DNA from: a virus
Length of the DNA stretch: 31,812 bases
Virus record (IMG/VR): IMGVR_UViG_3300031746_000105
Span: 1-31,812 of that record
Reading direction: 5' to 3' (one strand)
Position numbers and translations under genes: made by a program
Notes under the pieces: generated by a model
What the model saw: the letters and a program-made list of their open reading frames with translations, nothing else
Databases searched by the model: none
Told to the model about the DNA's origin: nothing
In this document: piece by piece, positions 6,438 to 31,252 of the stretch
Position numbering within the stretch: position 1 is the stretch's first letter
How the letters are laid out: the number at the start of each line of letters is the position of its first letter

Positions 6438-7586
6438 TTACCTCCTGAAGTTGCTCCTCATCGCGTAGCCATCGATTATGCTAGTCATCTCCCGCCTCAG
6501 GTCCTCGACCCCGTAGATGTTCCCCACAGTGATGTTGAAGACCACACCTCCACCGAATCCGCCAGCTCTGGACAGTGGGACGACCGCCTCGGGACCAGAT
6601 TCGCCGATCATCGCAATATGCGGTGTCGTGAAAATACCCCCGGCCGCATGACCAGGCAAATATCTCATAGGACCACCAGAAACACTAGGCCACCTCGCCC
6701 CAGCAAACATGGTTTCTCCAAACCAATCGTGCTCGATGCCAAGTAGATCATTCAACCAATTCCCAAGTTGACTTGCAGCTTCTTGTGGAGGATTTGTGTC
6801 CCTTGGATTGGGCAGCATCATCCCTTCTATTAGTGCACGGGCTGCCTCGGAGAGACCGGCAATGATCGCCGCTAGTATGCTAGGAAGCCACGTCTTAATT
6901 GCTTCCGTCAACAGTGGTACTACATCATCGATGAGTGCTGGCAGATTATCTGTTATCACTGGTTCAATGGCATCAAAGAAATCTTGTAAGACCGGAGTAA
7001 TGTTTTTAAAGAGGATTCCCAGGTTACTCATTTGAGTGGACATCACATTCTGCAATAGTCCTAGTCTCTCATTCGGGTTCGCATCCTTCATCGCTGATGC
7101 GAAGCCAGCATAGGCTGTTGCACTTGCCATAGTGAATGTCATAAAGGCTGGCATCAGCATCATCGCGAGGGTGTCGCCAATCGGGCGCAGGACATTGTCG
7201 AACCCCATTTTGAGGACCTTGAGCACCCCCTGGAGCATGGGGCTCGCGTCTTTCAGTGCATCGAACATCTCCGTGACGGTGGATTGCATGCTCTGCCCGA
7301 TGTCCTTGAGGGCCATGACCCCCGTGAATATCCCCGTCAGGGCCGTCCCCATGCCGCCGCCCATCGCACTCGCTATGGATGTACCGAAACTAGCGAGCAT
7401 CGAAGCCCCGCCCCCGATATCCCCCCTTATCCCGGCAGCGATGGTCTGCCCGCCCGCACGTATGCCCCCGGGCATGAGTTGCTTGCCAAGTGATACCTTC
7501 TGCAGGCCATCCGCCTTGCGCTTGATGTTATCGAGGACCCTGCTCACCTGGTCGTCGGCCTTGACCCGAACGACTATGTCAGCCAT
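6438..7586 (-). CDS. Tail tape measure protein
   Basis: 382 residues from the ATG at 7586, which is chosen because AGGAGGCGACGAAAC precedes it; upstream codons in frame encode an Arg-rich shadow. The N-terminus (ADIVVRVKADDQVSRVLD) is typical of tape measures. Long Gly/Ala/Met-rich hydrophobic stretches follow (about 45-150 and 225-265). Residues 316-338 carry the classic C-terminal motif GGIFTTPHIAMIGESGPEAV with VPL after it. Tape measures set tail length at roughly 1.5 angstrom per residue, so the tail would be about 57 nm, short for a siphovirus. It follows the chaperone and the 36-residue membrane protein, in the canonical order. Confidence 0.92.
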   Translation of the reverse strand: MADIVVRVKADDQVSRVLDNIKRKADGLQKVSLGKQLMPGGIRAGGQTIAAGIRGDIGGGASMLASFGTSIASAMGGGMGTALTGIFTGVMALKDIGQSMQSTVTEMFDALKDASPMLQGVLKVLKMGFDNVLRPIGDTLAMMLMPAFMTFTMASATAYAGFASAMKDANPNERLGLLQNVMSTQMSNLGILFKNITPVLQDFFDAIEPVITDNLPALIDDVVPLLTEAIKTWLPSILAAIIAGLSEAARALIEGMMLPNPRDTNPPQEAASQLGNWLNDLLGIEHDWFGETMFAGARWPSVSGGPMRYLPGHAAGGIFTTPHIAMIGESGPEAVVPLSRAGGFGGGVVFNITVGNIYGVEDLRREMTSIIDGYAMRSNFRR

Positions 7587-7689
7587 GTTTCGTCGCCTCC
7601 TTTGCGCGTTTCTTGATACGAGAAATGACACAATCAAAGACCACGACGCAGGCCAACGCGGCGATGAAGATGACACCCTCTTCGGTCAT
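7579..7689 (-). CDS. 36-residue single-pass membrane protein
   Basis: A small gene with strong translation signals: AGGAGGCGACGAA before its ATG, which itself overlaps the stop of the frameshifted chaperone (AAATGA). The product has a short acidic N-terminus, a hydrophobic helix (residues 5-22) and a basic tail (RIKKRAKEATKHG). The stop overlaps the start of the tape measure by 8 bp, so it is translationally coupled on both sides. Function unknown; candidates are a holin-like or tail-assembly accessory peptide. Confidence 0.75.
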   Translation of the reverse strand: MTEEGVIFIAALACVVVFDCVISRIKKRAKEATKHG

Positions 7690-8143
7690 TTCGTCGCCTC
7701 CTGAGCCTTCCAATCAAGTGCCGCCAGAAGGAAACCAGTCTCTGCCTGCGTAGCCTCCGCTATCTCATGCGGGAGTTTGTTGAGGCTGAGGCAGAGGACG
7801 GCCATCGCCTTCCCCTCATCCGTCAGCTCGATCCACTTTCGGGCTTCTTGGCCCGAAAACCCGCCTCATCGATGAGCCGTTCCAGGAGACGGCCGAAGGT
7901 CTTTGAGTCCATCGCGGTCAGGTCTTCTTCGGTTATCTCGGGGTGCGCCTTGCTGATCATCATGTGTGTGGCCTTGAGCCCGAGCATGTCTACCGGTAGT
8001 TCCTGCCGTTCTATGACCATCATCTCCGCCGCCGTGAGGAGCTTGTATTCGACAAGTCCCAGTACGGGGTCATCGAAGGACCGCAGTTCGTCCGCCTTGG
8101 CCGCAAGTGCCTTGGGGTTGAATCTGATGACTATCTCACCCAT
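7686..8143 (-). CDS. Tail assembly chaperone, -1 frameshift fusion (gpGT-like)
   Basis: If ribosomes slip back one base on G_GGT_TTT (zero-frame codons GGT at 7861 and TTT at 7858), the product keeps the first 96 residues and continues from 7856 in the -1 frame for 56 more codons to the TGA at 7688-7686, about 152 residues. The extension (starting SGQEARKWIELTDEG, ending AQEATK) is stop-free, amphipathic and protein-like. It fills a stretch otherwise empty on this strand. The stop overlaps the next ATG. Alternatively the downstream part could start on its own at ATG 7805 (39 residues). Confidence 0.7.
7823..8143 (-). CDS. Tail assembly chaperone, short form (gpG-like)
   Basis: 106 residues, mostly helical (residues 10-20, 37-60, 70-95). 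It lies between tail tube and tape measure, where tail assembly chaperones are encoded. The N-terminus is a strand, GEIVIRFNPKAL. ATG at 8143 with TGAGGCGG upstream. Near its end the frame crosses a G_GGT_TTT heptamer (7862-7856), where a -1 shift would produce the longer product described separately. In lambda-like phages the short form coats the tape measure during tail assembly. Confidence 0.75.
   Translation of the reverse strand: MGEIVIRFNPKALAAKADELRSFDDPVLGLVEYKLLTAAEMMVIERQELPVDMLGLKATHMMISKAHPEITEEDLTAMDSKTFGRLLERLIDEAGFRAKKPESGSS
7837..7862 (-). promoter_or_regulatory. Programmed -1 frameshift signal
   Basis: Slippery heptamer GGGTTTT at 7862-7856 fits X_XXY_YYZ exactly in the zero frame. 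It is followed at once by a perfect inverted repeat: an 8-bp stem at 7858-7851 with 7844-7837 (TTTCGGGC / GCCCGAAA) and a 6-nt loop. The lower A-T pairs overlap the slippery site, so the working stem in front of the ribosome is CGGGC/GCCCG with almost no spacer, shorter than usual. Confidence 0.65.
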
Positions 8144-8153
8144 GTCAACCGCC

Positions 8154-8567
8154 TCAGGCCGTGCTCCTCGCCAATGCGCCAGTGCCCTGGAATGACACGC
8201 GGGTCTTCGCCAGGTCGCCCTTCGCTCCTGCCAGGATTGGGTAGCTAGTCAGGATGCAGTTCCCGTTGTATCCGGGGTTGGTCGTGCTCCTGTTGCCGGT
8301 CGCCGGTCTGACCTCTATTGCAAAGGCCGCCGCGCCGATAAGGCCGGTCAGGGTCGCATCTACCTTGGCGGATGCGAAGTCCTGTTGGAAATCCACGTCG
8401 ACCTTCCAAGATGTCAGTCCCGCTATGAAGCTCTTTGCCGCCGTCGTGCCCATTGCAGTTGTTTCCACGGCATCGGCCTCATAGGTCAATGTCACTTCCG
8501 TCACGTGGTCCGATAGGTCCACGGTGTTGACGAGACAATACTCGCCACTTACTACATATGTTGCCAT
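8154..8567 (-). CDS. Major tail (tube) protein 1
   Basis: 137 residues of alternating beta-strands with the pattern of siphovirus tail-tube proteins: N-terminal GEYCLVNTVDLSDHV, a segment ALTYEADAVETTAMG-like turn (about 30-43), SFIAGLTSWKVDVDFQQDF (46-64), and a C-terminal strand pair. The tube protein polymerises round the tape measure. GGTGAAAGAATG precedes the start. It shares its opening (M-A-x-Y-V-x-x-G) and architecture with the adjacent 245-residue protein, so the two are probably paralogous. Confidence 0.75.
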   Translation of the reverse strand: MATYVVSGEYCLVNTVDLSDHVTEVTLTYEADAVETTAMGTTAAKSFIAGLTSWKVDVDFQQDFASAKVDATLTGLIGAAAFAIEVRPATGNRSTTNPGYNGNCILTSYPILAGAKGDLAKTRVSFQGTGALARSTA

Positions 8568-8579
8568 TCTTTCACCTAC

Positions 8580-9317
8580 TTACTTTATCCCAACCCCGCA
8601 AATGAACGTGAACGAGGGGCTGGTCCCGCTGATCGTCCAACTCAGCCTCCAATATGTATCGGTTATCGGTCCATTGGCCGACTTCCACTCACTACCAATG
8701 GCCGTGAACGCCGTGTGCGTGATCTGCGCCACTGGACTTGACATTCCACCATTATCATCCGACTGGACTGCCACGGTCAATGTCGGCGTCCCCGTCCCCG
8801 ATATGGCCATGATGTGGAGGAACGAGTATACCTTTTGCGCCGCCGTGACTGCCCCGAGGGTGTATGCCGTCCCATTGCCTGTTGCGGTCTTGACGACCTG
8901 TCCCTCCATCGAGTTCACCTTGACCAGAACCGAACCGGACGACTTCGCCTTGATCGCGAACACTGCGATGTCCCCTATCTTGTTCTTCAGGTCGAGACTC
9001 GTCAGCAGGGAACGGAATGCATAGCCAGGAGCATTCGCCGCCGCACCATTCGGATATACCGACAGGGGTTTGTCCGCTACCGCCAAGTTTGCCCACAGGG
9101 TCGGTTCCGAATCGGTCAGGGCCGCATAGGACGTATAAACGTCCGCGTCGAAGTCCAGATCCTGCAACCCCGACATGAACGTCCTGGCGGCCACGACACT
9201 TATCGGCGTGGTTTCGAGCGCAGGGACCTTCGCCTCCAGTCCGACCTTGCTGATGTCACCCGAGCGGTCGTACTCGCCGATATAGAGTTTCTGCCCGCAT
9301 ATGACGTAGATCGCCAT
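8580..9317 (-). CDS. Tail tube protein 2, with extra C-terminal beta domain
   Basis: 245 residues. The first 130 parallel tube protein 1: MAIYVICGQKLYIGEYDRSG, ETTPISVVAARTFMSGLQDLDFDADV (33-60), then strands. Residues about 130-245 add a second beta-sandwich (SSGSVLVKVNSMEG, ITDTYWRLSWTIS) resembling the Ig-like or carbohydrate-binding decorations on tail tubes. The start ATG overlaps nothing but shares the GGCGGTTGACATGG context with the chaperone gene. It may be a second tube protein, a terminator, or a decorated variant. Confidence 0.65.
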   Translation of the reverse strand: MAIYVICGQKLYIGEYDRSGDISKVGLEAKVPALETTPISVVAARTFMSGLQDLDFDADVYTSYAALTDSEPTLWANLAVADKPLSVYPNGAAANAPGYAFRSLLTSLDLKNKIGDIAVFAIKAKSSGSVLVKVNSMEGQVVKTATGNGTAYTLGAVTAAQKVYSFLHIMAISGTGTPTLTVAVQSDDNGGMSSPVAQITHTAFTAIGSEWKSANGPITDTYWRLSWTISGTSPSFTFICGVGIK

Positions 9318-11009: not shown

Positions 11010-11350
11010 ACCACGCTCGAATGTATGATCGCCCGTCCACTGGTCACCGTGAACTCATTGCTGCTCCCGTCCACGATCTTCGCCTCATGATAGTAACATC
11101 CAGCAAGCGTGGCCGTGTCTGTATTAGTGATAGTGACTGTGAATATCCCACCCGATGGATTGGTCTTCACGATGCCAGTCCCAACGGCCTTTGATATTAG
11201 GGCGGTCGAGGATGTGGGTAGTAGTGTCAATTTCCAGAATATGGTGAAGTTTGTGAGGTTCACTGCAGCCCCATTCGAATCCGTGACCGTGACCACTATG
11301 TCCTTGCTGTCCCCCGCATATAACTCGAAATTCTGATCCTCTGATGTCAT
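11006..11350 (-). CDS. Ig-like virion protein (BppU N-terminal-like)
   Basis: 114 residues, almost wholly beta: FELYAGDSKDIVVTVTDSNG (8-27), FTIFWKLTLLP (35-45), GIFTVTITNTDTATL (68-82), CYYHEAKIVDGSS (85-97). This matches the Ig-type domain at the N-terminus of baseplate upper proteins and related small virion proteins that anchor appendages. It overlaps the stop of the giant repeat protein (ATGA), so the two are probably made together and may form one appendage. Confidence 0.6.
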   Translation of the reverse strand: MTSEDQNFELYAGDSKDIVVTVTDSNGAAVNLTNFTIFWKLTLLPTSSTALISKAVGTGIVKTNPSGGIFTVTITNTDTATLAGCYYHEAKIVDGSSNEFTVTSGRAIIHSSVV

Positions 11351-13857
11351 GCCTTGCCTCCACCCAATGAAACCGATTCTATCTCGCCCGCTATGCCCGT
11401 GATTGTCAGATCGCCCAGCAATGAGGAGGGTTCCGTTTCACCGCCGACCGATGAGAGTCCTTTCTCCCCCAACAATGAAAGACTGTCGCGCCAAATGAAT
11501 GATGTCTGGAGGCGGGCGTCACTCGCCTTATTGAGGATGGTAGTAACCCGAACCCTCGCCGAACTTACCATACTCAGTTCGATGCCCGTTCGCCTCAGTC
11601 GCGCATCAGTATTTTTGGTGTTGGTCCATGTCCTGAGTATCCTTGCATTGGAACTCGTTGTCAATTCAGCGGCGAGTTTCTTTAAGCGAGCGACTGATTG
11701 CTTTGAGGTGGTGTTGGTGAGGCGCAACCGAGCGATGCTATCCTTTGTCAATGTCACGCCGAGCTTCTTCAAGCGGGAGTTGGAATAGATGGTGCGGTCA
11801 TTGCCCAGCTTCTTGAGTCGTGTATCAGAATATTTCGTTTGGGTGATGCCCGCATTCCTCAAGCGGGCGTTGGAATATTTAATGAGTTCGTTGGCCAGCT
11901 TCTTGAGTCTGGTGTTGGAATACTTGGTGATCGTCTGTGTCCCGGTGGTGATTTGCAAACGGGCATCGGATGTCTTGGAGAGGGTTACACCCAATTTCTT
12001 CAACCGTGCTATGGAATCGATGGTCCTATCGTTCCCCAGTTTCTTGAGGCGGCCATTGGAGTATTTCGTAATGTCGGTCGTCTTCTTGAGTCTGGCATTT
12101 GAGAGTTTGCTCATCTCGTTCGCTAGCTTCTTCAGTCGGGCATCGGATGTCTTGTTGACCTCAGCACCCAACTTCTTCAAGCGGGCGACCGATGCCTTGC
12201 TGAGTCCGGTGGTTAGACGCAATCTGGCGCTGCTATTGACCGTGAGTTCCACGGCGAGTCTCTTGAGCCGGGCGGTCGAATAGCGGGTGACCTCAGCGCC
12301 TAGCTTTTTGAGGCGGGCATTGGAATATTTTGTGACGTCGTATGTGGTCGCGCCACCGAACGCCTCTGCAAACGCTGATGGTGTCGGCTCATTGGCCGTG
12401 TCCTTCCTGACCCGCACCCAATCTATCGTGGTCGTGTTAGTGGAAGTTTCCCACCAGGCGATATGAATATCGCCCGACGGCATGTTCGTGGCATAAGTCG
12501 TATTAGTGCCAGCAGGAACTTCATAATAGGATGATGTCGAGCGGTATTTTATCTTGAAAATGCCCGTCGCGCGTGTATTTGCCAAGGCAGTGTATGTTTG
12601 TGTCGTGCCATCGTTGTTGTATGCTCGGTCATTATAATTATAGAAGAAAACCCCCTTACTGCTAGCTGGAGAACAGAAGCCGGGGTTGTTCCATCCTTGA
12701 ATGTGGATGTTATTGCTCATGGCGGTGACACGATATTCGAGCGTGTGCCCCTGACCGAAGGCGGCGGTTTTGCTCCCGAACTTATACCAACTTCCACCAC
12801 CTGGGCCAGTTAGGGTCAATGCACCGCCACTGACGCTAACGCCCACCTCCTCACCGACCGCGTTCAACCATTTATCGTGGTCATAATCGGCCCCTGGGAA
12901 ATCATCGAAGAGGAGGAAGGTCGCAATGCCATCGCTCGCATCACTGCCGGAGTTCTTCCCATAGTAGATGAAGATGTCGGTCGTCGACGGCGATGCGGGT
13001 ATGGAGCCGACCTCGACCCACCACGTCCCGTCCGTCCCGTCGCTCTCCTCTCTCCATAAGTCTAGAAGCCCCTGCCCGGTTGAATCCGTGAATCGAACAT
13101 CGTAGGGCCAATTGAGCGCGTGACCATTCAGGTAGACGGTCGAACCCGAGTTCGTTCCTGATCCCTGCACTATTGAGAGTTTGATGGGGTAGTCCGTCTG
13201 TGCGCCGTCGGACGACCCCGCAATGTTGATTCTGGCACGGTAGTTATATCCTGACAGCCACGCGGTCGTGATGAGGTGCGCACCGCTGGCAGTGGTCTTT
13301 TCAACGCCGAGTTTCTTTAGGCGGGTCGCACTCGTCGGGCTGAGGACTTGGGTCTTCTTTAGCCGCGAAACAGAATATTGCGTGGTCTCCCGGGTCATGG
13401 TTATCCGGGCGAATATGACATCCATCGAGATGGTATAGGAGGTGGAGGAGTTCCCCTTCTTGCCATAGACGCGAACCTTGAAGTTCGTATCGTTGAGCTT
13501 GGTCGTGTCCCAGGATGTCGCTGATGTAACATCTAGCCAGAAGGTCGTGCTTTCAGAGGTCGTAGTTAGGTTGGTGGTGGAGATTATGATGGTGTCCGTG
13601 GACCAACTCGTCCCACCATCCCATGATACCTGCACCGTGACTGAACAATAGCTGTTATCGGCACTCTCCTTCGCCTGAATGCCGATCTCGACCTTGTTGA
13701 CTGTACCGCTCTCGCTTATCTGAAAGGTTTTCCAGATGCCCGATACCGAGCTGTTCTTTGCGGGGACGCAGGTCGTGAATGCTTCATCGTCGCTATATCC
13801 ATAATGGGGTGTCGTCCACGAGTTCGATTCGTTGGCGGTGGGATTATAGATGGTCAT
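11347..13857 (-). CDS. Giant appendage protein: ARLKK repeats plus DUF2341/jelly-roll insert
   Basis: 836 residues. 1-157: a beta-sandwich (VTVQVSWDGGTSW). 159-200: three repeats of the 14-15 residue type S-x-x-R-L-K-K-L. 201-302: a DUF2341-like domain (YNYRARINIAG, DYPIKLSIV, DIFIYYGKN). 316-485: a concanavalin-like jelly roll starting FDDFPGADYDHDKW. 509-789: nineteen further repeats. 790-836: Gly-rich tail with recurring S-L-L-G-(D/E). Domain types are those of archaeal surface and adhesion proteins, so a tail-fibre or capsid appendage binding host glycan is likely but unproved. GGTGAAGT precedes the ATG. It lies between connector genes and capsid genes, an unusual place for a fibre. Confidence 0.7.
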   Translation of the reverse strand: MTIYNPTANESNSWTTPHYGYSDDEAFTTCVPAKNSSVSGIWKTFQISESGTVNKVEIGIQAKESADNSYCSVTVQVSWDGGTSWSTDTIIISTTNLTTTSESTTFWLDVTSATSWDTTKLNDTNFKVRVYGKKGNSSTSYTISMDVIFARITMTRETTQYSVSRLKKTQVLSPTSATRLKKLGVEKTTASGAHLITTAWLSGYNYRARINIAGSSDGAQTDYPIKLSIVQGSGTNSGSTVYLNGHALNWPYDVRFTDSTGQGLLDLWREESDGTDGTWWVEVGSIPASPSTTDIFIYYGKNSGSDASDGIATFLLFDDFPGADYDHDKWLNAVGEEVGVSVSGGALTLTGPGGGSWYKFGSKTAAFGQGHTLEYRVTAMSNNIHIQGWNNPGFCSPASSKGVFFYNYNDRAYNNDGTTQTYTALANTRATGIFKIKYRSTSSYYEVPAGTNTTYATNMPSGDIHIAWWETSTNTTTIDWVRVRKDTANEPTPSAFAEAFGGATTYDVTKYSNARLKKLGAEVTRYSTARLKRLAVELTVNSSARLRLTTGLSKASVARLKKLGAEVNKTSDARLKKLANEMSKLSNARLKKTTDITKYSNGRLKKLGNDRTIDSIARLKKLGVTLSKTSDARLQITTGTQTITKYSNTRLKKLANELIKYSNARLRNAGITQTKYSDTRLKKLGNDRTIYSNSRLKKLGVTLTKDSIARLRLTNTTSKQSVARLKKLAAELTTSSNARILRTWTNTKNTDARLRRTGIELSMVSSARVRVTTILNKASDARLQTSFIWRDSLSLLGEKGLSSVGGETEPSSLLGDLTITGIAGEIESVSLGGGKA
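11491..12333 (-). repeat. Coding repeat array, 19 units of 14-15 codons
   Basis: Codons 509-789 of the giant protein. Consensus T-K-x-S-x-A-R-L-K-K-L-x-x-E-L; examples TKYSNARLKKLGAEV, NKTSDARLKKLANEM and TKYSDTRLKKLGNDR. Units of 15 with LKKLG alternate irregularly with 14-residue units with LRLTT or LKKTT. The Ser and the Arg-Leu pair are the most constant. Confidence 0.85.
13258..13383 (-). repeat. Three further units of the ARLKK repeat, upstream of the DUF2341 domain
   Basis: Codons 159-200: TQYSVSRLKKTQVL, SPTSATRLKKLGVE and a degenerate third unit ending HLITTAW. They show the array is interrupted by the 300-residue DUF2341/jelly-roll segment. Confidence 0.75.
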
Positions 13858-16700: not shown

Positions 16701-18218
16701 TTACCTCGTTCTTTGTCTTGACAATTTCAATGTGTCCTCATAGCTCAGGGACATCAGTTCTTTAGAACCGAACCCCGCGCCACGCACTCGTTCCTCCAAG
16801 GATTTCTCCACGACCTCGTCGGGCACCGGCCTCGGGGTGACGATACCATTCGCCACCGCTGCCTGCGCCTGCTCCTTGCGCACGATCTCGTCCGCCTTGA
16901 TCTCCGCCGCCTTCGCGACGGCATCCTTCAGGTCCGCGTCCGTCTTCTGCACCGGGGCCTCCGGCTTCTGCTCGGGCGGTTGTTCCACGGGGTTCGGTTC
17001 GGGCGGATTCGGCTTCGGCGCTTCGGGCGCGGCGAACTTCGTCGAGAGTTCGTCCACCTTGTGCGCCATGTCCGAGACCAGGGCGAACAGTTGGTTCACC
17101 TTGTCCTCCAGCGTGGCCTTGGGTTGCGGCCCTCCGCCATCGCTCACCGGCTCGGCCGCCTGCTCATCCGTGGCCTTTTCTAGGTCCGCCTCTGGGAAAA
17201 TATCGGCAATCTTCATGAGCGCCTCGGTCATGATCGTGTCGATCATCGCCTCGGTCGAGGCGTCCTTTCTGATGCGCGTATACACCGTATCCTTCCACTT
17301 AGAGTGAGTCTCATCTTTCCAGTGGCTTTTGCCCCGCTTCCGATAAAGTTTGTTCACATCCTCTTCCTTGGGTGATTTCGCCCCGTCCTTCTTGATGTCC
17401 TTCGTCTTGTCACATTTCTCTTGATCCTGTTCCGTCATGTGCTCCTCCTCGCCCTGCTTCGCCATCGCCGCCTTTGCCAGTGGCGCGAGATGTTCCTTCG
17501 CCACCGCCTCGGGCACGCCTGAGTCAAGCAGGACTTGGTATATCCCCGCGCATCTGGGGCACTTACTTACCATCTCATCTGCGCCTTGAGAAAAGAATGA
17601 AGTTGGATCCGATTTCGCCACGGCGTTGAACTCCGTGACCTTGGCCTGGGGGCACGCGCCCTTCGGCACGCCCGATATCTCCGTAACCAGGCGCATCTTG
17701 AGCACGTTGAAACAGCGATGCTCATCGCACCTGATTGTCGAACCGACCGCATCCCTGAACCCGCCGATGCTGAACTCGGACAGCTCGCCTTTCTTGAGCG
17801 CGTCCCAGCAACGGTCGTAGAACTCGTCGCCCTTGAAGACGACGCCGTAACAGTAATTGCCCATGACCCCGGGCGAGTATTCCCTCAACTCGTGGTCCAC
17901 GACCGAGGCATAGGAATGGTTCGAGTGCTGGGCCTGCATCTGCCCCCCGCGCTCGATGAACTTGGCTATCTCGTCAAACAGCACCTTCTGGTCGGTCAGT
18001 TCATGTTGCTTATCCACTAGCCCCACGTTCGCCCAGAACTCGAAGGAACGGCAATCGGCGCTCTTGCGCACGGCTGCCCACGCCACCTTGAAGGCGGTCT
18101 TCTCGTCCTTGTATTCCTGCAGGGCGGCATTGAACGCCTCCCTGAATTGGTCCTGGTCCTTATCCGATAGCGAACTCCTCACCGCGGCCGGGAGTTCCGC
18201 GTTTGAACTGTATGGCAT
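16701..18218 (-). CDS. ChaB-like / prohead protease (XkdF-type) / scaffold fusion
   Basis: 505 residues. 1-52: a ChaB-like helical domain (SSNAELPAAVRSSLSDKDQ, AFKVAWAAVRK). 55-205: an XkdF-type serine protease core, with QAQHSNHSY (95-103; His98 a likely catalytic residue) and GELSEFSIGG (144-153; Ser150 the likely nucleophile). 220-223: a lone CPRC. 260-340: a Lys/Glu-rich stretch. 385-425: Pro-rich linker. 426-505: helical scaffold-like tail. Such proteins cleave the capsid and scaffold during head maturation. A strong Shine-Dalgarno AGGAGG precedes the ATG. The zinc-like CPRC and the ChaB fusion are unusual. Confidence 0.8.
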   Translation of the reverse strand: MPYSSNAELPAAVRSSLSDKDQDQFREAFNAALQEYKDEKTAFKVAWAAVRKSADCRSFEFWANVGLVDKQHELTDQKVLFDEIAKFIERGGQMQAQHSNHSYASVVDHELREYSPGVMGNYCYGVVFKGDEFYDRCWDALKKGELSEFSIGGFRDAVGSTIRCDEHRCFNVLKMRLVTEISGVPKGACPQAKVTEFNAVAKSDPTSFFSQGADEMVSKCPRCAGIYQVLLDSGVPEAVAKEHLAPLAKAAMAKQGEEEHMTEQDQEKCDKTKDIKKDGAKSPKEEDVNKLYRKRGKSHWKDETHSKWKDTVYTRIRKDASTEAMIDTIMTEALMKIADIFPEADLEKATDEQAAEPVSDGGGPQPKATLEDKVNQLFALVSDMAHKVDELSTKFAAPEAPKPNPPEPNPVEQPPEQKPEAPVQKTDADLKDAVAKAAEIKADEIVRKEQAQAAVANGIVTPRPVPDEVVEKSLEERVRGAGFGSKELMSLSYEDTLKLSRQRTR

Positions 18219-18643
18219 TACTTGATCCTCCTGATTTTTGTGTGTGAGGCTAGAAAACCCGTGTCCTCATGCCCGGTCTCTGAAAGTATCTCCCCCGCCC
18301 TGGCCACCACCGCGTCGCAGATGGCGCGGTAGCCGTCCGCGTTGTTCGCCAGGATGCTCGCCGCCTTTTGCCGTATCTCGTCGACGGCGGGGCGGACGAA
18401 GGGATGCGCATCGGTGCCATGCTTCCTGATGTTCCACATGATGGCGTTGGCGACCTCCTCGGCCTTCTTACCACTGAGTCCCAACTTGCGTTGCACCCAC
18501 GCCAGGATGTTGGCTTGGCCTTCCTCGGATATGCCATGCGGGCCAGTCCCCCACTCCACCCACTCAGCATAGGGCATCTCCCAACGGACCTCCCACTCCT
18601 GATCGAGGCGGGCCTTCAATTCGTCCAGTGTATCCTCAGCCAA
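18218..18643 (-). CDS. HK97 gp10-like neck / virion morphogenesis protein
   Basis: 141 residues. YAEWVEWGTGPHG (25-37) and GTDAHPFVRPAVDEI (75-89) are the hallmark motifs of the gp10/minor-tail 'virion morphogenesis' family, in which the W-x-x-x-G-T and the H-P-F-x-R-P-A segments are conserved. It starts at TTG 18643, supported by GGTGAGGG 4 nt before it. It overlaps the portal stop by 3 bp of coding space. The family normally lies near the connector genes; here it lies between portal and protease. Confidence 0.8.
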   Translation of the reverse strand: MAEDTLDELKARLDQEWEVRWEMPYAEWVEWGTGPHGISEEGQANILAWVQRKLGLSGKKAEEVANAIMWNIRKHGTDAHPFVRPAVDEIRQKAASILANNADGYRAICDAVVARAGEILSETGHEDTGFLASHTKIRRIK

Positions 18644-20903
18644 CGACCCTCACCACCCTGTGCCTTTCATTCGGATGCAATACCCAATCGCGCGGTTTCA
18701 TGCCGTGCGACTTCGCCACCGTGTGCAGGTATTCCTTGAGGTCTTGCAGCCTCATGCCTTTCTTCGAGCCTATGACGGCCTCGCGGCATGCGTCGGTCGT
18801 CCTCTTGTCGTCCGGACCCTGCCATTTGTAAATTGCATCAGGCGGGTTGTTCTCCTGGAAATCGAGTTCTCTCGCCGTGCCTGCTATCACCATCGATTCG
18901 GTCCTTGCGATCACTTCGGCGTTGGCGTCGGGAAGTTGCGGGTAGGTGCGTTGCAGGGCGGCCCTGACCTCTTGGACCGTCCACTTCGCCTTGGACATGA
19001 TGTCGATTATCTTGCCATACGCCCCCTCCGCCTCCTGGGGCGAGAGGTTCTGGAAGCTGCTCATGCGTTGCGTGAGGCCGAGCGCTTCGAGCAGTCTCTG
19101 GCGTTTCGTCCTGTCCTTGAAGAACGCCTTTGATACCAATGAGTCACAGTATTCCTCGTCGGTCATCTCGCCCTCGGAGATGTCTTCGATGCCTGCGGTC
19201 ATGGCCTTGGTGACCTGGGGCGTTGATCCGATTATGTCCTTGGCGCGCTGCTCGAATGAGATGGGCTGGGAGGTCGGAGCGCCGTTCATTGGTGCGGATG
19301 GACCTTGAGAATCTGAGGCGCGCAATGCGGTGATTTCCTCATTCGTCAAAGGTTCTTGACCCAGCCTTTCCCTGATTTCATTGGCCGTCCCTGTATGCGT
19401 CTCGAACAACGCCCTCGCCTGGCTCGCCTCAAGGTAGCCCATACGTGGGGTTGCGCCCCCGACGGTTGCCGTTGCCGTCGCCTTGACCTCGCCGCTCGCG
19501 AACCTCCAATTCCCGTCGATGTATTCGGTCCCTATGCCCATGTCCGCGAGCGTCTTCGCGTACTCGGCCTCCTTCTGCTTCATCGCCAGCTCGGCCGCTT
19601 TATCCTCGTCGTCGTCCGGCGTGATGATGAGGTCGTGGTCCTCGATGCCGAAGGCCCTTACAAGCGGCCGGAGCATCTTGCCGTTGACGAATCCGCGCAT
19701 GCGCTCGATGGTGTTGCGCGTTACTCTGATGAGGTTCAAATCGTTCTTCAGCCCGCCACTGTTGGAGGTGTCGTTCTGATAGATGATGGAGACGCCGAAC
19801 AACGAGCCATGACGTTGCCGTATCTCCTCTTTCATCGGCAGCACGTAGGCGTTCAGGTCCTGCATGAGGTTGACATAGGTGATCGGCGACCCGGACCCGG
19901 CCGCGTCGCAGGCGATGATGGGGACGTAACTAGGGTCCTCCTTCATCTTCGCCTGTATCTTCTGCCACTCCGCATAGAGCGATGCGGGGTTGCTCGATTT
20001 GACCCCGATCATGCCCGGCGGGCGGCCCTTCTCGAAGTTCTTGCGGACGCGCTTCTCGATGTAGTGGTAGGCGAACATGTCGTCCGCCATCTTCAGGATG
20101 AGGGGGTAGCCGGTGATGAGGAAGGGATGATAGAGCGAGCCGGTGATGACCTCGCCCTCGACATATGAACGGGCTGCACCAGTGGCGACCGAACGATACT
20201 GGATGTCGTAGAGCTTCATGCCGCAGGTCTTGCACTTGTCGCCCGCCTGCGATTCGTCGCGGTGGCGGAGGCATACCCTCGTGCCGTTCCCGAAGCGGCC
20301 GCTGTTGCGGTCGTAGATCGGTTCGACGTATCGTGGGTCCAGGGCGAGGAGTTCCTGCGGATAGACCCGGTCCACCTCCCCGGTCGGCTTGGTGACGTAG
20401 GCGTTGATGAGCAGCCACACCGGCTTGTCGAAGACGACGGTGTTGCGGACCGCCAGGTTCAGCACGTCCATCAATGACTGCCCGTTGTCATTGGCCTTGT
20501 CGATGAACGATGTGCCGTCGAGGCGGGAGAACAGGCGGAGCTCGCTCTTGTTCGGCTCACGTAGTTGGTCCGAGCCGCAGTTGGGGCACTTGTCGATCTC
20601 CTCCTGCGATTCGAAGTCGCATAACTTGCACTTGGATGCGAATCTCGGCTTCCACTCCACGCCGTTGCGCAGCGTCTCCTGCACGATCGTCTGCACCGTG
20701 TCGGCGAAGATGCTCACTTCCTGCTCAAAGAAGGCCGCGAGGTACATGGCTGGACGCGCGACCGTGGTGTTGAATGATTCGATGGGGTCCAGTCCCGGCC
20801 TCTGATTGTAGAGATCCCGGAACAAAGGGTCCCCGGCCATCGGCCCGAAGTCCTCGTGCGCCGCCTTGCGCAGGACCTGCCCCTCGAACTCCATCAGGTT
20901 CAT
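18636..20903 (-). CDS. Portal protein fused to Mu gpF-like (MuF) domain
   Basis: 755 residues from ATG 20903, which overlaps the previous stop (ATGA). Residues 1-480: portal, with the wing/stem features NYQRPGL-like start, KPVWLLINAYV (160-170) and RKNFEKGRPPGMIGVKSS (288-304). Residues 645-755: MuF domain (SPP1 gp7 family), seen as ARTESMVIAGTARELDF (666-682), YKWQGPDDKRTTDAC (692-706) and HPNERHR (743-749). Two zinc-knuckle-like insertions lie in the portal part: Cys92/95/106/109 and Cys211/His214/Cys224/Cys227. The portal forms the DNA channel; MuF proteins act in packaging or as internal proteins. Confidence 0.92.
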   Translation of the reverse strand: MNLMEFEGQVLRKAAHEDFGPMAGDPLFRDLYNQRPGLDPIESFNTTVARPAMYLAAFFEQEVSIFADTVQTIVQETLRNGVEWKPRFASKCKLCDFESQEEIDKCPNCGSDQLREPNKSELRLFSRLDGTSFIDKANDNGQSLMDVLNLAVRNTVVFDKPVWLLINAYVTKPTGEVDRVYPQELLALDPRYVEPIYDRNSGRFGNGTRVCLRHRDESQAGDKCKTCGMKLYDIQYRSVATGAARSYVEGEVITGSLYHPFLITGYPLILKMADDMFAYHYIEKRVRKNFEKGRPPGMIGVKSSNPASLYAEWQKIQAKMKEDPSYVPIIACDAAGSGSPITYVNLMQDLNAYVLPMKEEIRQRHGSLFGVSIIYQNDTSNSGGLKNDLNLIRVTRNTIERMRGFVNGKMLRPLVRAFGIEDHDLIITPDDDEDKAAELAMKQKEAEYAKTLADMGIGTEYIDGNWRFASGEVKATATATVGGATPRMGYLEASQARALFETHTGTANEIRERLGQEPLTNEEITALRASDSQGPSAPMNGAPTSQPISFEQRAKDIIGSTPQVTKAMTAGIEDISEGEMTDEEYCDSLVSKAFFKDRTKRQRLLEALGLTQRMSSFQNLSPQEAEGAYGKIIDIMSKAKWTVQEVRAALQRTYPQLPDANAEVIARTESMVIAGTARELDFQENNPPDAIYKWQGPDDKRTTDACREAVIGSKKGMRLQDLKEYLHTVAKSHGMKPRDWVLHPNERHRVVRVVG

Positions 20904-21109
20904 TGGCGCTTCCCCCTGGCCGCCCACATGTCGGGGATCTGGCGCAGTTCGTTCCTTGGGTCGACCCAGTATGTCATGCAGTCCTGGCAGAGCTGGAAGC
21001 CATACTTGTACGCGAAGTCGAATGCGTTCTCTGGAAAGTCCACGACCTCTTCCCGTCCGCATCTCTCGCAGACGATCCTCACCGAGCGTTCAGTATCGAA
21101 GGACCCCAT
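20900..21109 (-). CDS. Zinc-ribbon small protein, 69 residues
   Basis: Start ATG 21109 with GAGGCGGTGAAC upstream; the longer reading lies in the neighbouring gene. Four cysteines in two pairs, Cys14/Cys17 (CERC) and Cys41/Cys44 (CQDC), separated by a strand-helix segment, form one zinc-ribbon site. Ends in a basic AARGKRQ. It overlaps the portal ATG. Possibly a nucleic-acid or terminase partner; no function recognised. Confidence 0.75.
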   Translation of the reverse strand: MGSFDTERSVRIVCERCGREEVVDFPENAFDFAYKYGFQLCQDCMTYWVDPRNELRQIPDMWAARGKRQ

Positions 21110-29464: not shown

Positions 29465-31252
29465 TCACTCACTCACCTCCGCAAAACTATCAAGTGCAAC
29501 ATGGCTAGTCTCGCATCTCTTGCGTATCAGTTTGACGTATTCGGGGTTCAGTTCGATGAGGATGCTTGACCGGCCCATCGACCGAGCTACCGCTCCGGTC
29601 GTGCCGCTTCCGGCGAATGGATCTAAAACTACGCATGGCACAGTTTCGCTTTCGTTGCATGAACAGGTAGGTTGCCAGCCGAGGGTTCGATACTGTGCGG
29701 TCGCTGATGGATAATTCTCCGCCTTTGTCTCTCCAAACCTTCCATTTCTCCAGTCCTTTGTGGCGAAGCCTTTTCCACCGAGATTCTTCTTATAATCTTC
29801 AGTCGGCTCAACAATCCTCTCCCACGGACTTCCGCACTTCGGGCAACATCCCTTCTCGGATGTGCCAGCCCTGATGCAACGCCTTGGTAGTTCTTCGGGG
29901 AAGGTGGCGAAATGTGCGGCTGCGTATGGCTGAGTAGCTATCTCCCAGACGGTGCGGGAGTTGCGGCCAGCGGGATGAGAGCGCCCACCATCGTGTTTAT
30001 CAATTCCAAATCTTGTCTCGATTGACCCCCCAAAACTATGGCCAAGTTGTTTTTGATATTCTTCCCATGAATAGGGGTCTGCTGACTTCTCTCTCACCGC
30101 TTCCTGGTCATAGAAGTATCTAGGCGACTTGCTCAATAGGAAGATGTATTCGTGTGCCTTGGTCGGACGATCTGTTACCGATTCGGGCATTGGGTTGTTT
30201 TTTGCCCATATAATATCCGAGCGAACATACCATCCAGGCTCCCATAAGTCTTTTAGATTTGGTTCGGGGAAATCAATGGTGGTTTCTCCCCCATTATGTA
30301 GGGAGATTAGACTTTGATGCGCCTTTTCTGCGTCCGGCCCCGAACTAGGGCATGATAACAGCAAACGAGCCTGATGCTTCTTTGCAGTTAGATAGGGGTA
30401 GATTTCTCTGATTATATCGCGGCATTCGTTGGTTCTCAGATTCCAACGATAGAGTTTCTGTTTGCGTCGTCCGTTTTCTTCAGGCCCCTGATCGCAGATA
30501 CTTCCCGAACCTGCAATTACCATGCACCTATCGACTATCGCTTTGTGGGTATTGCAGACTTCGAGGCCCGCCCCATAAGTGGCGTTCTTTCTGGCGTATC
30601 CTTGCCCGTTGCTTTGCCCTTCCTTACGGCAATGAATGAACATACATCCTTCGGCTTCAATCATTGCCGCTAACCAGATGCGGTCGTGTTCGTTCTGGAT
30701 TCTTCCCAGATAGTAAGGCTGCTGCAAAGCGAAGGCTAGACGCCAGGGTTGGCCTACGAGGTCTTTGGGCTTGAGCGTTTCAACTCTTGGCCTTACTGGT
30801 TTGCTATCATCACAAACACCATACTTATCAGGCTCTTGGTGCGCGCCGCCTCCAGCATAGCAATCTCCCATATTACACCAAAGCGTGCCGTCCTTCCTGA
30901 GTACGCGCTTGACCTCGTGAAATGCCGCTGTCATGTTGGCGATGTATTGCTCAGGCGTTGGTTCGAGTCCTAATTGACGTTCAGTTCCGGCTATCTTGCC
31001 TGTGCCGTGGCAGATGGGGCAGAGCGGGGCAAATTGGACGAATGCGCCGAGATTCGATTCCCGCTCTGCCCATCCTGCGGGCGGATTTGGCAGTTCGTCG
31101 CGTGTACGCCCAACACCACACCCACATCTCGAATAATCCCTCAAGCCCCAATATGGCGGACTAGTAACACAGCAATGCACCGAGTCGTCTGGAAGTCCTC
31201 TGAGATGATCTAGAACGTCACCGTTGAGGATTCGGACGAATGGCGCGGTCAT
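29465..31252 (-). CDS. N4/N6 (beta-class) DNA methyltransferase with LAGLIDADG-type insert
   Basis: 595 residues. Catalytic motif TSPPYW (30-35) first and the SAM-binding motif DPFAGSGTTG (544-553) near the C-terminus give the beta-class motif order. DIIWAKNNPMPESVTDRPTKAHEYIFLLSK (346-375) is the conserved core. Between FALQ (174-177) and GWYVRSDI (340-347) is an insert of about 160 residues with the LAGLIDADG homing-endonuclease pattern. Zinc-like Cys clusters (43-45, 78-81, and CCPKC near 455) are also present. The enzyme methylates viral (or host) DNA at an unknown site. AAGGAG precedes the ATG; no restriction partner is seen. Confidence 0.92.
   Translation of the reverse strand: MTAPFVRILNGDVLDHLRGLPDDSVHCCVTSPPYWGLRDYSRCGCGVGRTRDELPNPPAGWAERESNLGAFVQFAPLCPICHGTGKIAGTERQLGLEPTPEQYIANMTAAFHEVKRVLRKDGTLWCNMGDCYAGGGAHQEPDKYGVCDDSKPVRPRVETLKPKDLVGQPWRLAFALQQPYYLGRIQNEHDRIWLAAMIEAEGCMFIHCRKEGQSNGQGYARKNATYGAGLEVCNTHKAIVDRCMVIAGSGSICDQGPEENGRRKQKLYRWNLRTNECRDIIREIYPYLTAKKHQARLLLSCPSSGPDAEKAHQSLISLHNGGETTIDFPEPNLKDLWEPGWYVRSDIIWAKNNPMPESVTDRPTKAHEYIFLLSKSPRYFYDQEAVREKSADPYSWEEYQKQLGHSFGGSIETRFGIDKHDGGRSHPAGRNSRTVWEIATQPYAAAHFATFPEELPRRCIRAGTSEKGCCPKCGSPWERIVEPTEDYKKNLGGKGFATKDWRNGRFGETKAENYPSATAQYRTLGWQPTCSCNESETVPCVVLDPFAGSGTTGAVARSMGRSSILIELNPEYVKLIRKRCETSHVALDSFAEVSE
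30239..30721 (-). other. LAGLIDADG-like domain inside the methyltransferase
   Basis: Codons 178-338. Hallmarks: DRIWLAAMIEAEGCMFIH (190-207; the LAGLIDADG helix with the acidic residue), an adjacent strand pattern (GAGLEVCNTHKAIVDRCM), then LYRWNLRTNECRDIIREIYPYL (267-288) with T-A-K-K-H-Q-A-R-L after it. No intein splice-junction residues (N-terminal Cys/Ser or C-terminal His-Asn) are present at the ends, so it appears to be retained in the protein. Confidence 0.75.

Follow-up and report, generated by a model that had tools for sequence, protein, structure and literature searches.

The tail assembly chaperone locus of this virus very probably encodes a G/GT protein pair produced by a -1 ribosomal slip at G_GGU_UUU, a site that most likely descends from an NNN_UUU_CGN +1 shift site of related archaeal viruses. 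The window analysed here is the whole 31,812-nucleotide stretch of IMG/VR record IMGVR_UViG_3300031746_000105 (positions 1 to 31,812). In the proposed mechanism, most ribosomes would end translation with the 106-aa G protein, and a minority would slip back by one base, the P-site tRNA-Gly moving from GGU to GGG and the A-site tRNA-Phe from UUU to UUU. The slipped ribosomes would read 56 further codons and release GT, a protein of 152 aa. By analogy with lambda, its T domain should join the tail-tube subunits to the tape-measure complex. What we infer here is that slippage occurs, how efficient it is and what GT does.

The gene order and the reading frames can be read directly in the DNA, as can the heptamer and the T homology. 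The chaperone locus lies on the minus strand, where the major tail gene is followed by the 106-codon ORF, a 36-codon ORF and the tape-measure gene (Table 1), and the chaperone thus occupies the position between major tail and tape-measure genes that is expected of a G/GT pair. The first gene after T is the 36-codon ORF (7689-7579) and not the tape-measure gene (ATG at 7586); the TGA of the T frame (7688-7686) overlaps the ATG of this small ORF at 7689 as ATGA, with GGAGG upstream. The arrangement of tube, chaperone, small ORF and tape measure resembles that of HRTV-29, which has a hydrophobic 50-aa ORF where the window has the 36-aa ORF. In family searches, the 106-aa G protein had no family match of its own, and no homology was detectable between the G domain of the window and those of its relatives. 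At the major tail end of the locus, two adjoining genes (8154-8567 and 8580-9317) each match families of major tail proteins (phrog_4574/phrog_9522).

Table 1. Features of the tail chaperone locus (positions in the window)
Feature	Position	Strand	Remarks
Major tail (tube) protein, 137 aa	8154..8567	-	phrog_4574 major tail protein, E = 4.7e-23
Zero-frame tail assembly chaperone (G-type), 106 aa	7823..8143	-	ATG at 8143, between major tail and tape-measure genes
-1 slippery heptamer G_GGT_TTT	7856..7862	-	in phase in the zero frame
TTT_CGG codon pair, +1 shift motif of relatives	7853..7858	-	TTT_CGN in 21/21 comparable archaeal genes
8-bp hairpin overlapping the heptamer	7837..7858	-	perfect stem; probably not a stimulator
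T-type extension in -1 frame, 56 codons + TGA	7686..7856	-	open frame
T-domain core DEGKAMAVLCLSLNKLPHEIAEATQAETGFLLAALDWKAQ	7701..7820	-	archaeal T profile E = 5.7e-11; vir524 match
36-aa ORF with hydrophobic stretch	7579..7689	-	overlaps T stop and tape-measure start
Tail tape measure protein, 382 aa	6438..7586	-	PHROG tape-measure matches, best E = 2.8e-11

Across the shift site (window sequence GGGTTTTCGGGCC), the zero frame of the 106-codon ORF reads GCG_GGT_TTT_CGG, which contains a canonical X_XXY_YYZ heptamer. A -1 shift at this point gives a product of 152 aa, with 56 codons past the junction. The zero and -1 frames overlap by 40 nt, and GGGTTTT is the sole in-phase slippery heptamer within this overlap. 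In twelve other window genes, in-phase X_XXY_YYZ heptamers were found at 7 of 5407 codon positions; the probability of one arising in the 13-position overlap is therefore ~0.017, or 0.007 if YYY is restricted to AAA or TTT. Counted as a string anywhere in the window, GGGTTTT was not enriched (3 seen vs 2.5 expected). On mammalian ribosomes, G_GGU_UUU ranks among the most shift-prone -1 heptamers (PMC5009743). A preliminary description of this DNA had pointed to a G_GGT_TTT heptamer in the zero-frame chaperone and to a -1 run of 56 codons ending in a TGA overlapping the start of the following gene; both were borne out, the heptamer being in phase at 7862-7856 and the frame, the stop and the start being those given above.

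The same description had placed a perfect 8-bp stem with a 6-nt loop immediately after the heptamer. The perfect stem exists (TTTCGGGC at 7858-7851 pairs with GCCCGAAA at 7844-7837, loop 6 nt), but it overlaps the heptamer rather than following it, and the heptamer's final three T's form part of the first 3 of its 8 pairs. A stimulatory stem would stand ~5-9 nt after the heptamer, whereas this one begins inside it. Because three of its pairs lie within the heptamer, it is badly placed to act as a stimulator: a ribosome decoding the heptamer would already have melted it. Furthermore, the region of heptamer and stem folded no better than shuffled sequences (z = -0.38); a longer 86-nt region gave z = -2.1. 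The hairpin was thus rejected as a stimulator.

Judged by its sequence, the -1 extension does encode protein and shares homology with the T domains of archaeal viruses. A profile built from eight archaeal viral T domains, with the window left out, was run with hmmsearch against 1092 six-frame ORFs and matched the -1 frame of the window at E = 5.7e-11, the next best match having E = 1.5. Thus, the ORF that overlaps G in another frame encodes a T domain. In addition, the fused chaperone matched that of vir524, a Methanomicrobiales virus, with 42% over 38 residues, in the -1 part only (E = 6.8e-4). Codon usage scored +16.3 bits for the T body, and in the 12-codon linker it favoured the -1 frame (+7.0 bits) over the zero frame (+3.3) and the +1 frame (-0.7). 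Searches with the T extension gave no convincing Pfam or PHROG match.

Archaeal relatives of the chaperone were gathered from whole-genome searches and from IMG/VR. Most were found via T, G or terminase homology and not via the shift motif; for BLv36, the T frame was taken from the position of the motif. All 21 comparable archaeal chaperone genes carry TTT_CGN near the end of the zero frame and an extension of 45-112 codons in the +1 frame; these 21 include close kin (Serpecor1, HJTV-2 and HF2 form one group) and leave out psiM2, which is without this T domain and presents a -1 case of its own. The TTT_CGN pair was present in 11/11 genes with clear coordinates, and TTT accounts for 27 of 1799 codons. 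The codon that precedes TTT is TCC in vir524, L054, L060, L062, L058, L079 and HSTV-2, GGG in HRTV-29, HRTV-4, HFTV1 and BLv36, and AAG, AAA, AAC, GCC, TCG or GAA among other relatives. A -2 shift was also considered for these genes, and +1 was preferred because UUU re-pairs perfectly at +1 (UUC) but not at -2. In GenBank, the chaperone fusions of HRTV-25, HRTV-27 and HJTV-2 (L075, L076, L078) are called -2 frameshifts; in all three, the zero frame contains TTT_CGN, consistent with a +1 slip of tRNA-Phe from UUU to UUC. Likewise, the HRTV-29 gene (L084, 21392-22071) is annotated as -1, but the frame in which it is homologous to the extensions of HRTV-4 and HFTV1 is +1 and follows GGG_TTT_CGC. 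Some GenBank entries that name these shifts -2 or -1 deserve to be rechecked.

The window departs from this pattern. It keeps TTT_CGG in the zero frame at the junction (7858-7853), but its T domain lies at -1 and not at +1, and it was not filed as a member of the UUU_CGN +1 class. Only 12 codons can be read in its +1 frame before a stop, against 56 in its -1 frame. Among the 22 archaeal genes, only the window has T at -1 and only the window has an in-phase heptamer; the zero/-1 overlaps of the 21 relatives, all of them distant, contain none (0/21). Close relatives were sought in IMG/VR with the fused chaperone, terminase, major capsid, portal and a degenerate site pattern, and none of the sequences found was close. 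The preliminary description had put forward conservation of the heptamer as a check; the heptamer is not conserved among the 21 distant relatives, which keep the T domain and reach it by +1 at TTT_CGN. Such conservation would support a G/GT pair but does not define one, as shift sites vary from one phage lineage to another. Relatives that retain the -1 frame and lose the heptamer had been named as evidence against a shift; this is in part what we see, but the frame in which the relatives carry T is +1.

A comparison with L062 suggests how the direction of the shift might have switched from +1 to -1. The distance from TTT to the DEG residues of T is 35 nt in the window and 10 nt in L062, and the linker, longer by 25 nt, shifts T into the -1 frame with respect to G. 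Directly ahead of UUU there is now a GGU codon, itself preceded by G, and this creates the -1 heptamer. It is reasonably probable that UUU, the +1 codon in related archaeal viruses, was turned into a -1 site here when the preceding bases became G_GGU, after an indel that altered the phase of T, and that the resulting hybrid GGGUUUUCGG may still slip both ways, so that a single gene would yield three different C termini. Should the -1 reading be true, this would be a natural frameshift site whose direction has been reversed with its position and downstream domain unchanged, which would suggest that the fusion is conserved and not the mechanism.

Different explanations of the locus have to be weighed against a -1 slip. 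The T frame might be open merely by chance, with no T gene at all, as its length of only 56 codons and the want of a convincing Pfam or PHROG match would allow; given the profile match to independent archaeal T domains (E = 5.7e-11) and the codon usage of the T body (+16.3 bits), this is extremely improbable. It is also very unlikely, if somewhat less so, that T is translated separately and without fusion. An in-frame ATG at 7805 with GAGGGG ~6 nt upstream could serve as its start, but the -1 codons upstream of this ATG already look coding, the homology begins upstream of it, at DEG, and the T domains of the relatives have no Met at this place. A separate start would, moreover, leave the in-phase heptamer unexplained.

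The least improbable of these alternatives, though still unlikely, is that the virus uses a real +1 shift at UUU_CGG as its relatives do, that a one-base assembly artefact, such as an extra G in CGGG, has displaced the T frame, and that the heptamer is coincidental. The window keeps TTT_CGG, and the other archaeal genes (21/21) shift +1 at TTT_CGN; with one G removed after TTT_CGG, the +1 reading becomes F-GQEARKW..., which is like F-GQSPAG of vir524. Against this, a heptamer would fall in phase by chance with a probability of ~1.7%, and the ~45 tightly packed genes of the window include no obviously broken frame. The codons of the linker also fit the -1 frame, although an extra G right at the site would leave that unchanged. 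We thus prefer the -1 slip at G_GGU_UUU.

The host of the virus is likely archaeal. The window terminase is closest to those of psiM2/psiM100 (36% over almost all of its length) and vir524 (48% over half of it), and the T-profile matches came from archaeal genomes; in 201 genomes of one bacterial phylum there were none. Terminase neighbours in bacterial genomes were uninformative on the host, and within the annotated collection the major tail protein was closest to those of bacterial phages. Taken together, T homology, gene order and terminase support the earlier proposal of a -1 frameshift that joins G-type and T-type chaperones in a probable archaeal virus. Four IMG/VR sequences of bacterial type, related to the window through the major tail protein (L002, L003, L004 and L005), carry heptamers rich in A (AAAAAAA/AAAAAAC), with -1 extensions ahead of the tape-measure gene, and their T domains did not match the archaeal T profile. 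Their T region differs from that of the window while the major tail protein is related, which suggests mosaicism.

Elsewhere in the window, a gene at 18636-21062 encodes a portal protein (808 aa) apparently fused to a Mu F-like head morphogenesis domain, and a 505-aa head-region protein (16701-18218) has a ChaB domain at its N terminus (Pfam E = 1.6e-11). An 836-aa protein (11347-13857) has numerous repeats that follow the pattern S(N/D)ARLKKLG. The Pfam match of a DNA methylase at 29465-31252 falls in three stretches, with a possible homing-endonuclease- or intein-like insert (AAMIEAEGCMFI...).

The locus resembles lambda gpG/gpGT in its place before the tape-measure gene, its short overlap, its in-phase -1 heptamer towards the 3' end of the G gene and its short C-terminal T. 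The lambda heptamer is G_GGA_AAG and differs from that of the window, whose T belongs to an archaeal group and whose GT is a predicted product. Another comparison is psiM2, a methanogen virus and the best full-length terminase relative. Its ORF19 (L028, NC_001902, 13209-13948) has a single in-phase heptamer (A_AAA_AAG at 13712). Precisely at this site the -1 frame becomes open, and it continues for 76 residues into a stretch that bears no annotation; this is likely to be an unannotated GT product. The psiM2 heptamer differs from that of the window, and psiM2 has no match to the T profile.

Frameshifting in archaeal tail chaperones, the mechanism that the preliminary description had suggested for an archaeal virus lineage, is not new: such shifts have been published for HVTV-1, HCTV-1/2/5, HSTV-2, Hardycor1 and the HF1 group. 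Shifts to -1 are known in HVTV-1, HCTV-1/2/5 and Hardycor1, and a +1 shift in HSTV-2 (PMC5009743, PMC8211752, PMC7911831). The -1 cases share with the window a -1 shift in the chaperone of an archaeal tailed virus, a comparison of mechanism and not of T sequence; their hosts are haloarchaea, and the Hardycor1 heptamer, G_GGA_AAT, differs from that of the window. For the HF1 group of haloviruses, a +1 shift at TTT-CGn was put forward in 2020 (PMC7230728). UUU_CGN also serves as the +1 motif in influenza PA-X, where peptide sequencing has shown it (PMC3498833), and in amalgaviruses (PMC5052127).

In the papers that our literature search covered, we found no description of a wide spread of TTT_CGN, nor of a relative that keeps TTT_CGN yet uses -1. 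The motif is present in methanogen viruses and proviruses and in those of several haloarchaeal families: to HSTV-2 and the HF1 group, our comparison adds HFTV1, HRTV-4/29, vir524 and proviruses. With these +1 chaperones, the window shares a zero frame that ends with TTT_CGN and a homologous T domain in the KLPHE group; it differs from them in having T in the -1 frame and a -1 heptamer that takes in the TTT. By its sequence, the locus thus seems to combine a known mechanism with an unusual change in the direction of the shift.
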